Shown: positions 22,352 through 28,880 of the stretch, one piece after another
How positions within the stretch are numbered: the first letter of the stretch is position 1
Layout of the letters: every line of letters starts with the position of its first letter
Assembly: GCA_022843905.1 (NCBI GenBank)
Contig: JALHMT010000001.1
Coordinates: forward strand, 265,610 to 329,609
From: Rubrivivax sp.
GTDB lineage: Bacteria > Pseudomonadota > Gammaproteobacteria > Burkholderiales > Burkholderiaceae_C
Length of the DNA: 64,000 bases
Direction of reading: 5' to 3'
Translations under genes and position numbers: made by a program
Notes under the pieces: generated by a model
Databases searched by the model: none
Told to the model about the DNA's origin: nothing
Seen by the model: the letters and a program-made list of their open reading frames with translations, nothing else

Positions 22352-25045
22352 TCAGGCGGACGGCCATGTCCGCTGCGCGCGTTCGATCGCCACGTCGTCG
22401 CTGACGGCGCCGGCTTCGTCCTGCAGGCGCGCCAGCCGCCCGGCGTCCATCGCGCCCCGCAGCCGGGACCACAGGTCGTCCATCGAGCGCCGGATGTAGG
22501 TGCCCGGCGCGAACTCGCCACCGGTGCGCTGCGGCGCATCGAAACGCGCCAGCAGCAGGGCGGCCAGGTCGTGCTGTTCTTCGTGCACCGCCAGCCAGGC
22601 CAGCGGCAGCAGCAGCATGCCGCGCCGACCGGCGCTGGTCAGGATGTCCTGCACTTCGGGCAGCACCTGGCGCGTGCCTGCCGTGTCGCCGCTCTGCGCC
22701 AGCATCATGGTCCAGATGCCCAGCCGGTTGGCGTTCTGGCGCAGCCGCCCGGCGGCCCGGATCTCGGCCAGCACCGCCCGGCCGACCTCGATGGCGCGTG
22801 CCGGGTGGCCGGTGTCGTGTTCGGCCAGCATCAGGCCGATGGCCGCGCTCCAGGACTCCCAGACCGCGCCCAGCGCCCTGCAGCGCGCCAGCTCCTGCCG
22901 GTTGAAGTCGAGATAGGGCTCGAAGCGCCCCTGCAGCCGCTCCTCGTAGGCGCGTGCGCTGCGCCCGAAACGCCGCAGCAGGTCGCTGGCGCCGGACGGC
23001 AGCAGGTCCTCCATCAACGCGATGCATGCGCTGCGGTCGGCCTGCGGTTCGGCGCGGCACATCAGCGTGTGCTGAAGATACAGCGCGTAGGACTGGCGCA
23101 CGGCGTCGCCCGCCTCGGCGAACGCGGCCACCGCTCGACGCGCCGCGGCCAGGCCCTCGCTGGCGGGCAGCACCATGCCGATGCCTGCCAGGTGGGCCAG
23201 CGCCAGGTCGACGCCGGCACGCTGCACCGCGTCGGCCTGTGGCCCGGCAGCAGCCAGCGCGGCACGACACCATCGAAGACCTTCTGACGCGTGACCGGCA
23301 CGGTGCCACAGCAGACCCGTGTGGCCGACCAGCGCGAACAGCGCCTGCAGCGCCTCGCCGCGCGAGGCGCCCGACGCCGCGTCTTCGGAAGGGCCCTCCA
23401 GACGCCCCAGCGCGTGCGCCAGCGCCGCGCGCAGGTTGTCCATCTCCGCGACGTGCAGCGTCACCCATGCCAGCGCCGGGTCGCCCAGCGCACGCCCATC
23501 GGCACGCTGCCAGTAGCGGGTGGCGGCTCGCAGGTGGCGGTCGCGGCAGGCCTGCACCTCGCCGGCCTCGATCAGGCGTTCCTGGGCGTAGTCCTGCAGG
23601 CTCTGCAGCAGGCCGAAGCGGCGCTCGGCGGTCTGTGCGTCGGGCGCCAGCACCATCGACTTCTCGACCAGCGCGTCGAGTGCGTCCAGCACCGCCCATT
23701 CGTCGAGCTCGGCGTCGGCGCACACCGCTTGTGCCGCGTCCAGCGTGAAGCCGCCGCGGAACACCGCCAGCCGGCGGAACACGCGCTGCTGCGCGTCGGT
23801 CAGCAGCGCATGGCTCCAGTCCAGCGTGGCGCGCAGGGTGCGCTGGTGCGGGGCTGCAGTGCGGGTGCCGCGTGTCAGCAACTGCAGGCGCGGTGCGGTG
23901 TCGCCATCGACATCGCGCGCCAGTTGGGCGGCCAGGCCTTCGAGGCCCAGCGTGGGTACACGCGCAGCGGCCAGTTCCAATGCCAGCGGCAGGCCGTCGA
24001 GCGCGCGGCACAACTGCGCGGCCGGCCCCTGCTGCGCGGTGGCGAGCACGAAGCCGGGCAGACGCGCAGCCACGCGGTCGACGAACAGCCGCAGCGCGCC
24101 GCAGGCCATCAACCTGGTCACTTCGGCTTCGTCGCCCGGCGCCGGCACGGTCAGGGGCCCGAGTCGGTAGACCTGCTCGCCGGGCAGCTGCAGCGGTTCG
24201 CGGCTGGTCACCAGGCAACGCAGTCCCGGCACGCGCGACTGCAGGCGTGACAGCACCGGCGCCAGCGCGCTCAGCAGGTGCTCGGCGTTGTCGATGACCA
24301 GGAGCAGCGACAGGCCCGCCATGGCCTGCGCCAGCGCGTCGGCATCGCGCCCCGCCGCCTCCGCCAGGTGCAGGGCATGCGCCAAGGCGGCGCACAGGGT
24401 CGCGGCCGTGGTGTCGGCGGCGTCGAGCGGCGCCAGTTCGATGAGCCAGCTGCCGTCGGCCCGTTCCCCGGACGCTTGCAGGGCCTGTTGCGAGGCCAGC
24501 ACCAGGGCCAGGAAGGTCTTGCCCACGCCGGCGGCGCCCACCAGCGTGACGAGGCGATGCGCGCGGGTCAGCATGTCCAGCGCCTGCAGGTCGGCTTCGC
24601 GCCCGATGGCCGCTGGCAGGGTCGCCGGCAGGTTGCCCGCGCGCCGGGCGAAGGGGCCCTGCGCGCCGGCGGACGCGGATCCGGGCGCCGCCAGCGCCGG
24701 CAGCACATCGCCCACGAACCGATAGCCCCGACCCTGCACCGTCTGCACCCAGCGCGGTGCACGTGCGTCGTCGCCCAGGGCAGCGCGCAGTTCGCTGACC
24801 ACCGTCTTCACCGCGCCTTCGCTGACGAAACGACGGCCCCAGACGTTGTCCAGCAGTGCGTCCTTCAGCACCAGCTCGCCCGGCCGCTGCACCAGGAAGC
24901 TCAGCAGCGCGAAGGACTTCGGCGTCAGCTCGACCACCCGGCCGGCGCGTGTCAACCGCGCATTGCCGACCTCGAGCACGAAGTCACCGAAGCGCAGCGG
25001 ACCCGACGGCGATCCCGGTGGCGACGGCGGGGAGGCGGCGGACAT
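22352..25045 (-). CDS. Large transcriptional regulator: OmpR-type winged helix DNA-binding domain plus STAND ATPase
   Basis: N-terminal FGDFVLEVGNARLTRAGRVVELTPKSFALLSFLVQRPGELVLKDALLDNVWG...; VGAAGVGKTFLALVLASQ P-loop; LLVIDNAEHLL. Confidence 0.85.
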   Translation of the reverse strand: MSAASPPSPPGSPSGPLRFGDFVLEVGNARLTRAGRVVELTPKSFALLSFLVQRPGELVLKDALLDNVWGRRFVSEGAVKTVVSELRAALGDDARAPRWVQTVQGRGYRFVGDVLPALAAPGSASAGAQGPFARRAGNLPATLPAAIGREADLQALDMLTRAHRLVTLVGAAGVGKTFLALVLASQQALQASGERADGSWLIELAPLDAADTTAATLCAALAHALHLAEAAGRDADALAQAMAGLSLLLVIDNAEHLLSALAPVLSRLQSRVPGLRCLVTSREPLQLPGEQVYRLGPLTVPAPGDEAEVTRLMACGALRLFVDRVAARLPGFVLATAQQGPAAQLCRALDGLPLALELAAARVPTLGLEGLAAQLARDVDGDTAPRLQLLTRGTRTAAPHQRTLRATLDWSHALLTDAQQRVFRRLAVFRGGFTLDAAQAVCADAELDEWAVLDALDALVEKSMVLAPDAQTAERRFGLLQSLQDYAQERLIEAGEVQACRDRHLRAATRYWQRADGRALGDPALAWVTLHVAEMDNLRAALAHALGRLEGPSEDAASGASRGEALQALFALVGHTGLLWHRAGHASEGLRWCRAALAAAGPQADAVQRAGVDLALAHLAGIGMVLPASEGLAAARRAVAAFAEAGDAVRQSYALYLQHTLMCRAEPQADRSACIALMEDLLPSGASDLLRRFGRSARAYEERLQGRFEPYLDFNRQELARCRALGAVWESWSAAIGLMLAEHDTGHPARAIEVGRAVLAEIRAAGRLRQNANRLGIWTMMLAQSGDTAGTRQVLPEVQDILTSAGRRGMLLLPLAWLAVHEEQHDLAALLLARFDAPQRTGGEFAPGTYIRRSMDDLWSRLRGAMDAGRLARLQDEAGAVSDDVAIERAQRTWPSA

Positions 25046-25109
25046 GGCGCGATTCTGGTCCAGCGCCCGAGCGCTTGCCAGTCTGTCGACGACGGCTTTG
25101 CGTCGGCTT

Positions 25110-25162
25110 TCGAACCGACGAAATGCCGACGCCGTCCTGACGACAGGCGGGTGTCGGTTGCC
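25110..25162. promoter_or_regulatory. Conserved element A: three 11-bp-period direct repeats (CCGAC/CCGAC/CTGAC on + strand), ~85% identical to 28215-28267
   Basis: CCGAC at 25115-25119 and 25126-25130, CTGAC at 25137-25141; 45/53 positions identical to the 28215-28267 element. Confidence 0.7.
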
Positions 25163-25218
25163 GTCGGCCCGCGTGGCCGCGGGGCTTGCAGCGCTTGCCC
25201 GGCGCCTTCCAGCGCTCC

Positions 25219-28035
25219 TTACGCGGCGCTCTCGGCCAGCGCCATGGCCACCGCTTCAGCAGCGGACAGGGCCTCGCCCTCGCGCCGCAAGGCGTCCCAG
25301 CGCGCAGCGCAGACACGGCCCTTGACGAGTCGGCGCACGCGGCGTTGCTGCTCTGCGTCGAAGCGATCGGCACGGCCCACGTGGGTCTGGGCGGTCTTGG
25401 CGGCGTAGGCCTGCAGCCGCACCGCGGCTTCCGACCGGCGCAGGTGGGCCAGCACGCGCGGCAGATCGCGCAGCGAGCGCGTCAGCTCCACCAGCGCCAT
25501 GCCGTCCCGGGCCAGCTGGATCGATTCGTGCAGGGCGGCCGCCGCCTCTTGCCATCGCCTGAGCGCGCTCAAGGCCTTGCCTCGCACCTGCAGCGCCTGG
25601 CTCAGGCGACGGGTGTCGCCGAGCTGCCGGGCAGTGGCAATCACCTCGTCGGCGCGCGCCAGCGCTTCCGGGTAGCGGCCGGCCTCCTGCACGACCAGGG
25701 CGACGAAGTAGCGTCCGGCGTTGATCGTGTGCCGATTGCCCAGCCGCTCCCAGATGGCCAGCGCCTGCCGGTAGAGGGCTTCGCCCTGGGCCAGGTCGCG
25801 CCGGTGCGCGTAGGCGATGGCGGCGCGAAGCACGGTGAGCCGGGCCAGCACCTGGGTTTCCTGTGCAGCGCGGGCCCCTGCCTCGGCCTCGTCGATGAGC
25901 GGCTCCAGCCAGGGTGCATAGCCCTCCAGCAGCCAGTGCAGCCGAGCCTTGACGTACAGCGCCCGGGCGCGCAGGCCGGGCTCGTCGGGCACCTGCTCGG
26001 CCCCCAGTTCGGCATGGCGACGCGCCGGCTCGCTCCTCGCGACGCTGAACAGCAGCTGCGCGAGCTGCGTGTGGCCGCGGCTGCGCAGCTCGACGTCCTC
26101 GCATCGAAACACGGCCTGCTCGAGGTAGGCCAGCGAATCGGGGCCGAGCACCAGGTCGTCGTGGGCACGGCCCAGCGCCAGCACGATGCGCAAGGCGTTG
26201 CTGACGTCGCCGTCGGTCAGTGCGCTGTGCAGTGCCGTCGACAGGTTGCTCAGCTCCGCACGCAGCGCCGGCAGCGAAGGGGTGCTCGGCAAGGCCTCGG
26301 CCCACTCCAGCATCCAGGCGCGGTGCGCAGCGCGCAGCCCGGCCTCGGCACCCGTGGTGCCTGACTGGCGCAGGTCGAGGACGGCGAACTCGCGGATCGG
26401 TTCATACATGAAGAAGCGCATCTCGCCGTCCGGCCCTTCGGCGGCGCGCAGCATCGAGCAGGCCACCAGGGCGTCGAGCCCCAGTGCGGCCTTCAGCGGC
26501 GAGACGCCGCGCACTGCCGCGGCCGCCTGCAGGGTGCAGCCTCCGCCGAAGACGGTCAGAGCGTGCATCAGGCCTCTTTCTTCATCGCTGAGCAGCTCCC
26601 AGCTCCAGCGGATGACGCGCTCCATCGATGCATGCCGTGCGTCGCGTGCGCCCCGCGGGCCGCTGCGCACCAGCAGCTCCAGCCGCGGCGCATCGCCTGC
26701 CTGAAGCAGTTCGAGGATGCGTGCCGGTGCCAGGCTGCGCACACGCGAGGCGGCCAGCTCGATGGCCAGCGGCAGCCCCTCGAGTGCGTGCACCAGGTCC
26801 AGCACGGCGGCCTTGTTCGGCTCGCCGAGGTGGAAGCTGCTGCGCGTCTGCTGTGCACGGTCGACGAACAGCGCCACGGCCGGGTTGCGCAGCACCTCGA
26901 TCAGGGCCAGCGGGCTGCCGCGTGCCGGCAGCGCAAGGGCCGGGACCGTCAGCGCGCGTTCACCGTCCACACCCAGTGCGCGCCGCGAGGTGACGAGCAG
27001 GTGCAGCTGCGGCAGCGCCCCTGCCAGCCGGGCCACGATGTCGGCGGCCTGTTCGACGAGCTGTTCGAAGTTGTCCAGCACGAGCAGCATCGCGTGCCCG
27101 TGCAGCGCCTGCACGAGGGTGTCGAGGTCGTCTGCGGCGCCGGGCGCCGCCGTGGCGTTGCTGCGTTGGCCTTGCGCCGAGGCGCCGAGCGCTTCGGCCA
27201 CGGCTTCGACGACTTGGGCCCGGGTCTCGCAGGTCACCAGCGAGACGAAGGCGACTCGATCCACGCCAGGCAGGGCCCGGGCCAGTTCCACGGCCAGTCG
27301 GGTCTTGCCCGAGCCGCCCGGGCCCAGCAAGGTGACCAGCCGATGCTCGGCCAGCTGCGCCAGCCACGCCGCCCGCTCCGCCTCGGGCAGGAAGTGCCGC
27401 GTGAGATAGACCGGCAGCGCCGCCCGCTGGTCGGTGGCGGCGGGCGCAGGCACAGGCGCGGGCACGGACGATGCTGACGGCATGCTGGCCGCGGCGGCAG
27501 GCGCCGGCGGCGTCAGCCGCGTGCTCAGGGTCTCCAGGCGCTGCCGTTCGGCCAGCACCCACTCGTCGAAGAAGCCCGGCAGCAGTTCACCGCGGTACAG
27601 GGCGAGCGCCTGGGTGGCGCGGCCGTGGCGCGCCAGGTGCTCGAACTCCAGAACGTCGCAGGCGATCGCGCCGCGCACCAGGCGCACGTCGTGGCGGTCC
27701 GCCAGCAGGACGGGGGAGGGCACGGCACCTGGGGGCTCGAGCACGGAGCGCAGCACCGACAGCGCTTGCCGCAGGCGGTTGCGACTGACCTGCGCATCGA
27801 CACCCGGCCACAGCAGCTCGACCAGTTCCTCGCGCGGGTGGTTGCGGTCCGGTGCGAGCGCCAGTCGTGCCAGCAGCGCCACCATCGGCCGGCTGGCCAG
27901 GCGTGTCAGGCGCTGCTGGCCGTCGTTCAGCTCGAAGGCGCCGAGAAGCCTCAGCGTCCATCGCGCCGGCGTTTGACTGCCGCGCCCTGCAACGCCGGCA
28001 TCGTCGGGAGTCGAGGGTGGTCTTGGCGCCTGCAT
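25219..28035 (-). CDS. SARP/AfsR-like regulator: winged helix, bacterial transcriptional activator domain, STAND NTPase
   Basis: WTLRLLGAFELNDGQQRLTRLASRPMVALLARLALAPDRNHPREELVELLWPGVDAQVSRNRLRQALSVLR; LLGPGGSGKTRLAVELARAL; MLLVLDNFEQL. Confidence 0.85.
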   Translation of the reverse strand: MQAPRPPSTPDDAGVAGRGSQTPARWTLRLLGAFELNDGQQRLTRLASRPMVALLARLALAPDRNHPREELVELLWPGVDAQVSRNRLRQALSVLRSVLEPPGAVPSPVLLADRHDVRLVRGAIACDVLEFEHLARHGRATQALALYRGELLPGFFDEWVLAERQRLETLSTRLTPPAPAAAASMPSASSVPAPVPAPAATDQRAALPVYLTRHFLPEAERAAWLAQLAEHRLVTLLGPGGSGKTRLAVELARALPGVDRVAFVSLVTCETRAQVVEAVAEALGASAQGQRSNATAAPGAADDLDTLVQALHGHAMLLVLDNFEQLVEQAADIVARLAGALPQLHLLVTSRRALGVDGERALTVPALALPARGSPLALIEVLRNPAVALFVDRAQQTRSSFHLGEPNKAAVLDLVHALEGLPLAIELAASRVRSLAPARILELLQAGDAPRLELLVRSGPRGARDARHASMERVIRWSWELLSDEERGLMHALTVFGGGCTLQAAAAVRGVSPLKAALGLDALVACSMLRAAEGPDGEMRFFMYEPIREFAVLDLRQSGTTGAEAGLRAAHRAWMLEWAEALPSTPSLPALRAELSNLSTALHSALTDGDVSNALRIVLALGRAHDDLVLGPDSLAYLEQAVFRCEDVELRSRGHTQLAQLLFSVARSEPARRHAELGAEQVPDEPGLRARALYVKARLHWLLEGYAPWLEPLIDEAEAGARAAQETQVLARLTVLRAAIAYAHRRDLAQGEALYRQALAIWERLGNRHTINAGRYFVALVVQEAGRYPEALARADEVIATARQLGDTRRLSQALQVRGKALSALRRWQEAAAALHESIQLARDGMALVELTRSLRDLPRVLAHLRRSEAAVRLQAYAAKTAQTHVGRADRFDAEQQRRVRRLVKGRVCAARWDALRREGEALSAAEAVAMALAESAA

Positions 28036-28214
28036 CAGCCGCAAAGGATAGCGGCAGCCGATGACAGCGCACCCTGGGCGCCGGGGCCGCGCCCGTGTGC
28101 TTCGTCGCGCTGCCCACGGTCTTCGCGGCCCCGGGCCGACGCCGCGCCGAGGTCCCGCCCGGCACGGAACCCGCGCGCCGTCCCGACTGTCGCCAACGGC
28201 CCGGCGCGATGCCG

Positions 28215-28267
28215 TCGAACCGACACAAAACCGACGCCGCCCTGACGACAGACGGGTGGCGGCTGCC
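28215..28267. promoter_or_regulatory. Conserved element B: three 11-bp-period direct repeats, matching element A
   Basis: CCGAC at 28220-28224 and 28231-28235, CTGAC at 28242-28246; lies between the SARP regulator and the globin gene. Confidence 0.7.
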
Positions 28268-28394
28268 CACACTGCGCCCTGTCGATTCCCGTGCAATCAG
28301 CAGCGCCAGCCGCTGCAGGAGGTCTCATGAAGTCCCTTCGATCCGCCCTGCGGCTGCGCCGCTCTCCCGGCTCCACCGCCACAGGAGGTCCGCG

Positions 28395-28880
28395 ATGACG
28401 CCGGCCCGCGTGCAGCTGGTGCGCGACACCTGGGCGCTGGTGCTGCCCATCCAGCAGCAGGCCGCAGCGCTCTTCTACGAGCGTCTGTTCCAGATCGCAC
28501 CCGAGGTGCAGCCTCTGTTCAGGGGCGACAAGGTCGAGCAGGGCGCCAAGCTGATGGCAGCCCTGAACACGCTGGTGCTGAGCCTGGGCCGCATGGAGCA
28601 GATGCTGCCGATGGCCCGCGAGCTGGCCATCCGCCACGTCGCCTGGGGCGTGCAGCCCGCGCATTACGAGCAGGTCGGACAGGCCCTGCTGTGGACGCTG
28701 CGAAAGGGCCTGGGCGATGCGGCCACGCCCGAGGTCATGTCAGGCTGGGCCGAGGCCTACGGCGAACTGTCGGGCGCGATGAAGGCGGCAGCATACGGCG
28801 ACGCACCGCCGTCCGCGACGGCGGCGGCCCACGCGAAAGTGCATCGATCCTCCGAGGCCGAGTCTGGAGAACGCTCATGA
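28395..28880 (+). CDS. Globin family protein (single-domain bacterial haemoglobin)
   Basis: VQLVRDTWALVLPIQQQAAALFYERLFQIAPEVQPLFRGD; RHVAWGVQPAHYEQVGQALLWTLRKGLG (proximal His region). Confidence 0.85.
   Translation: MTPARVQLVRDTWALVLPIQQQAAALFYERLFQIAPEVQPLFRGDKVEQGAKLMAALNTLVLSLGRMEQMLPMARELAIRHVAWGVQPAHYEQVGQALLWTLRKGLGDAATPEVMSGWAEAYGELSGAMKAAAYGDAPPSATAAAHAKVHRSSEAESGERS

Follow-up and report, generated by a model that had tools for sequence, protein, structure and literature searches.

Transcription factors with OmpR-type winged-helix domains bind direct repeats with an 11-bp pitch (PMC4832192, PMC10936776). PhoP binds 7-bp direct repeats separated by a 4-bp spacer, which gives the 11-bp pitch (PMC4832192). 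The operator of AfsR lies across a poor −35, in a promoter whose −10, CACTGT, is suboptimal, and the main PimR operator consists of three direct repeats of 11-bp pitch (PMC10936776, PMC5930380). In SARP promoters, the 3′ repeat lies 8 bp from the −10, and an OmpR-type domain with NOD and TPR activates across a poor −35 (PMC10936776). In the STAND class, the NOD ATPase passes from the ADP form to the ATP form and multimerizes (PMC6468293).

Two regulators, reg1 and reg2, and a globin are encoded in the window, the whole 64,000-nucleotide stretch of DNA that was analyzed (Table 1). A repeat search of the window recovered the 53-nt pair described in an earlier note, 25110–25162 and 28215–28267, which is identical at 45/53 positions (85%) with a spacing of 3105. 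The note had also reported CCGAC, CCGAC, and CTGAC at 11-bp steps in both copies, and a pattern scan confirmed this; CCGACN6CCGACN6CTGAC occurs in the window with zero mismatches just at 25115 (+) and 28220 (+). With up to 2 mismatches, the triple repeat has 4 window matches against 0.42 expected, and the extended pattern CCGACN6CCGACN6CTGACGACAG has 2 window matches and 0 in 100 shuffles. Coordinates place the copies relative to the genes as the note had them: 25110–25162 lies 65–117 bp upstream of the reg1 ATG (25045), and 28215–28267 lies 180–232 bp upstream of the reg2 ATG (28035), with the globin ATG (28395) about 128 bp downstream of it.

Comparative genomics defined a full element, CYGAC-N6-CYGAC-N6-CTGACGAC-N19-ACACTGC. 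Its second conserved block, ACACTGC (once AGACTGC), emerged from comparing sites found by the repeats alone and starts exactly 19 nt past CTGACGAC in seven of those eight sites: window 28220, the C22 site of the same genome, two in G013, two in G060, and one in G014. The exception is 25115. All 25 aligned sites have A at the second and T at the last position of the hexamer; the first seven of these sites were chosen independently of the second block and the later ones partly on it. The variants TAnnCT or TAnnTT occur in Azohydromonas and Pseudomonas. An invariant A and T are the signature of a sigma70 −10 and are as expected of an activator-dependent sigma70 promoter. The units run head to tail with the 11-bp pitch of OmpR-type operators, three per site but five at G000:C22; they begin about −60, −49, and −38 relative to the putative −10, and the last overlaps the −35 region. 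The full element is, as predicted from these alignments, a direct-repeat operator whose end extends into the −35 region, followed by a sigma70-like −10. Of the window pair, only the 28220 copy carries the downstream ACACTGC, at a distance fixed in relatives, and it is a complete putative promoter element facing the globin. The 25115 copy lacks a −10 and falls short of a complete element of this kind.

Table 1. Coordinates of regulators, operator copies, and associated features (window positions unless a locus is given)
Feature	Coordinates	Strand	Description
reg1	22352–25045	−	897 aa; OmpR-type winged helix (Trans_reg_C) and STAND ATPase (AAA_22, NACHT-like); candidate cognate DNA-binding protein
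Putative reg1 −10 CAGAAT	25052–25057	−	6 nt before ATG (leaderless type); similar in orthologs
Duplicated segment, copy 1	25066–25162		homologous to 28170–28267
Operator copy 1	25115–25146	+	units CCGACGAAATG CCGACGCCGTC CTGACGACAG(G); TCGGCCC in place of ACACTGC; upstream of reg1
reg2	25219–28035	−	938 aa; SARP-like N-terminus (weak Trans_reg_C match), AAA_22/NB-ARC, TPR; between copies; probably an insertion, not the cognate regulator
Duplicated segment, copy 2	28170–28267		homologous to 25066–25162
Operator copy 2	28220–28251	+	three 11-bp units CCGACACAAAA CCGACGCCGCC CTGACGACAG(A), reading toward globin; conserved beside reg1 orthologs
Putative sigma70 −10 CACACT	28268–28273	+	within CACACTGC; conserved N19 after CTGACGAC
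23-codon ORF	28327–28398	+	MKSLRSALRLRRSPGSTATGGPR, then stop; ATGA overlap with globin
Single-domain globin	28395–28880	+	161 aa; downstream of complete element; best NCBIfam match is globin part of flavohemoprotein
~70-aa family members	L129:11600–11815 (+), L128:11275–11481 (+), L245:13571–13804 (+), L247 near 7966, L130:8923–9123 (−)		beside regulators, downstream of element
~70-aa family members, continued	L154:7602–7883 (−), L164:10973–11185 (+), L165:6882–7094 (−)		beside regulators, downstream of element

The window's own genome (G000, Rubrivivax clade, 7.4 Mb) holds three exact copies of the triple repeat, the window pair and G000:C22:79667, where five in-phase units (CCGAC four times, then CTGACGAC) overlap the end of the upstream ORF. 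Among 81 genus genomes, the triple repeat with zero mismatches was found only in G000, G013, and G060; those of G013 and G060 directly flank reg1 orthologs with 53% and 49% identity. The full element with at most 1 mismatch was found in these genomes only in G000 (2), G013 (2), G060 (2), and G014 (1), and all five sites outside G000 adjoin reg1 orthologs, that of G014 being 41% identical. Allowing up to 3 mismatches raised the number to 14, compared with 2 for the reversed pattern. Of the sites gained in this way, two of the three in G011 and those in G054 and G027 are likewise found immediately upstream of genes for Trans_reg_C regulators; two of these regulators are 64–65% identical over part of the winged helix. 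A wider contig scan found variants of the element beside reg1 homologs in Inhella, Aquabacterium humicola, Caldimonas caldifontis, Azohydromonas, and Pseudomonas. Degenerate repeats occur at the reg1 orthologs of G067 and Betaproteobacteria bacterium 338R (the latter judged by eye), and many of the more distant Trans_reg_C–STAND homologs lack a site of this kind. With 2 mismatches allowed, a GACCG-extended consensus gave zero matches in 399 genomes sampled across the order; this pattern also misfits the window's sites, so that only its strict form can be called rare. On a genome-wide scale, the 19-bp two-unit pattern lacks specificity: with up to 2 mismatches it has 767 matches and its control 691. 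A perfect 7-bp tandem array, (ACGACTG)n, was met in the motif search at G000:C105:3356–3402.

The reg1 protein matches Trans_reg_C at residues 35–110 (E = 1.4e-20), the winged helix expected for an OmpR-type operator, and residues ~18–113 match Trans_reg_C and CadC/OmpR/PhoB models. AAA_22 scored above cutoff, with NACHT and nSTAND1 sub-threshold, in keeping with a STAND ATPase. The −10-like hexamers CAGAAT, CACAAT, or TACAGT stand 6–7 nt before the reg1 start codon in the window, G027, G013, G060, G011, and G054 (loci L243, L129, L128, L138, and L235), which suggests that reg1 genes are transcribed leaderless. The repeat closest to the −10 of the reg1 ortholog in G013 and G060 is 15–16 bp upstream of that −10 and covers the −35 region. 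Binding of reg1 at this position could influence its own expression, which makes autoregulation plausible. The corresponding gap in the window is 57 bp; gaps range from 15 to 57 bp, and phasing was not relied on.

G027, G014, and Aquabacterium humicola also have the order reg1, site, then globin. The globin is first after the site in A. humicola and follows an exported protein in G014. G027 has the closest reg1 ortholog (56%), split over two contigs. The site there lies ahead of a gene for a PEP-CTERM-like exported protein, and the stop codon of this gene and the globin start overlap in an ATGA. The window has the 23-codon ORF in place of that protein, and this ORF may be a gene remnant. The downstream site of G060 is followed by an operon that encodes the globin, two PEP-CTERM proteins, and a beta-lactamase-family protein. 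A homolog of this last protein occurs in G013, as does a PEP-CTERM protein. Two exported-protein ORFs without a Pfam or NCBIfam match lie 56 bp past the five-unit C22 element (L134:781–2837). In several genomes, the regulator-adjacent site faces a ~70-aa protein (GxLEHVLSGRRxxFxSxxELLxxL), mostly divergent from the Trans_reg_C–STAND regulator. No Pfam or NCBIfam model matches the members tested, and the window does not encode one. Targets vary between species, and a common physiological signal is not evident. At L161, L162, L163, L164, and L166 (Mitsuaria, Azohydromonas, Pseudomonas), related elements lie ahead of ORFs for outer-membrane efflux-type lipoproteins, judged NodT-like by eye.

The repeat blocks are very probably binding sites of one neighboring switch protein. 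Because the element is found at reg1 orthologs and is absent at reg2 homologs, the predicted operator is that of reg1, not one common to two regulators. We consider it likely that the blocks are tandem reg1 binding sites, that ATP-switched reg1 activates the globin, and that copy 1 either tunes reg1 or is a relic. With inducer present, reg1 would go to its ATP form, multimerize, and bind head to tail and cooperatively to the 11-bp-spaced CYGAC units. At 28220, the CACACT −10 follows the overlapped −35 after a long, poor spacer; at so weak a promoter reg1 would be an activator, and bound reg1 would recruit RNA polymerase to transcribe the globin. The 25115 copy would tune the CAGAAT promoter of reg1 or be left over from the insertion of reg2. 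It counts against this reading that the globin site in the window is 3 kb from reg1, with reg2 in between, that the repeats are degenerate at two reg1 orthologs and missing at many distant homologs, and that the targets vary between species.

The earlier note had proposed an 11-bp-phased OmpR-type operator shared by both regulators that may also control the globin. Phylogenetic footprinting supports such an operator at the globin; the sharing is not supported, as the element tracks reg1 orthologs only. A cross-regulatory circuit, in which both regulators or reg2 bind a shared element, would fit the presence of one copy upstream of each regulator and the OmpR/SARP-like N-termini of both. However, the triple repeat at up to 2 mismatches is absent from 27 reg2-homolog upstream regions, including that of the 76–81% ortholog in G038, which rules out a common operator as the main reading. 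Moreover, reg1 orthologs have repeats with no reg2 ortholog nearby, the −10 of the 28220 copy faces away from reg2, and reg2 has a conserved start-proximal TATCCT separate from the repeat element, the stretch around it being the only part common to the reg2 upstream regions of the window and G038. We regard a cross-regulatory circuit as unlikely. Recognition by some other, unlinked transcription factor, with reg1 merely one target, would account for the C22 site and two sites in G004, all far from any reg1 ortholog. It is decidedly unlikely given that the sites with at most 1 mismatch outside the window's genome adjoin reg1 orthologs, on either side of the gene, and that the element is missing from most genomes of the genus in which reg1 has no close ortholog. 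Two alike blocks near each other could also belong to a dispersed mobile or structural repeat with no regulatory role, the outcome that the note had named as fatal to its proposal if found in many unrelated intergenic regions. Just three exact copies in 7.4 Mb rule this out, and cross-genus conservation with invariant spacing to the −10 likewise makes it most improbable.

The pair could, finally, be mainly a duplication scar: the entry of reg2, for example by single-crossover integration, would have duplicated ~100 bp, and copy 1 would now be functionless. Gapped local alignment extends the homology to ~97 bp (25066–25162 / 28170–28267), and laxer scoring gives 126 versus a shuffle maximum of 94. 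This homology takes in flank and spacer sequence for which other sites show no conservation, so the pair is a segmental duplication of ~100 bp in which the repeat units were kept. The closest reg2 ortholog, in G038, has different neighbor genes, and G027 has reg1, site, exported protein, and globin without reg2. Reg2 is probably an insertion into the reg1–globin intergenic region with a ~100-bp duplication, which would account for the presence of a −10 at only one of the two copies. The 25115 copy, at the ancestral position beside reg1, may be autoregulatory or a relic. A mere scar is possible but somewhat doubtful, in that the units of copy 1 are all intact though its flank has diverged, which suggests retained binding. 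A scar would account for how the pair arose but not for what the element does, and it is compatible with activation of the globin by reg1, so the two readings are not exclusive.

Regulators combining a winged helix with a STAND ATPase are numerous in these genomes, and a sequence-defined operator with fixed promoter geometry makes one of them directly testable. This operator connects a globin with PEP-CTERM-type exported proteins and with an unnamed family of small proteins. In the literature searched, no described proteobacterial wHTH–STAND operator or regulon and no PEP-CTERM/globin regulator was found. We tentatively propose an undescribed regulon type of Burkholderiales, with variants in Pseudomonas, in which a wHTH–STAND regulator with its own operator class (−60/−49/−38; CTGACG 20 bp from the −10) would control a globin, PEP-CTERM/exported proteins, and the ~70-aa divergent family. 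If this is true, the ~70-aa protein could be a partner or modulator of the regulator.

The SARP and SARP-LAL regulators with NOD and TPR, AfsR and PimR, resemble reg1 in the fusion of an OmpR-type winged helix to a STAND/NOD ATPase and in their direct-repeat operators of 11-bp pitch. Their promoters differ in geometry: the 3′ repeat lies 8 bp from the −10 in SARP promoters, whereas here the distance in all sites is 15 bp (11-mer unit) to 21 bp (CTGAC core), so the site is not classed as a SARP operator. Nor does reg1 or reg2 pair an OmpR-type domain with BTAD, which gave no Pfam match in either; reg1 has an OmpR/CadC-like Trans_reg_C, and its candidate targets are not antibiotic clusters. OmpR/PhoB response regulators and CadC-type wHTH activators supply the models for the reg1 DNA-binding domain, but reg1 has a STAND ATPase and no receiver or membrane domain, and the repeat sequence (here CYGAC) differs. 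MalT-type STAND activators with TPR sensors would share with reg1 the NOD ATPase switch, a likeness drawn from the class mechanism. MalT has a LuxR-type C-terminal HTH, whereas the winged helix of reg1 is N-terminal. Reg1, the element, and the regulon seem undescribed, and the kind of site is already known, that of OmpR/SARP-type direct repeats.
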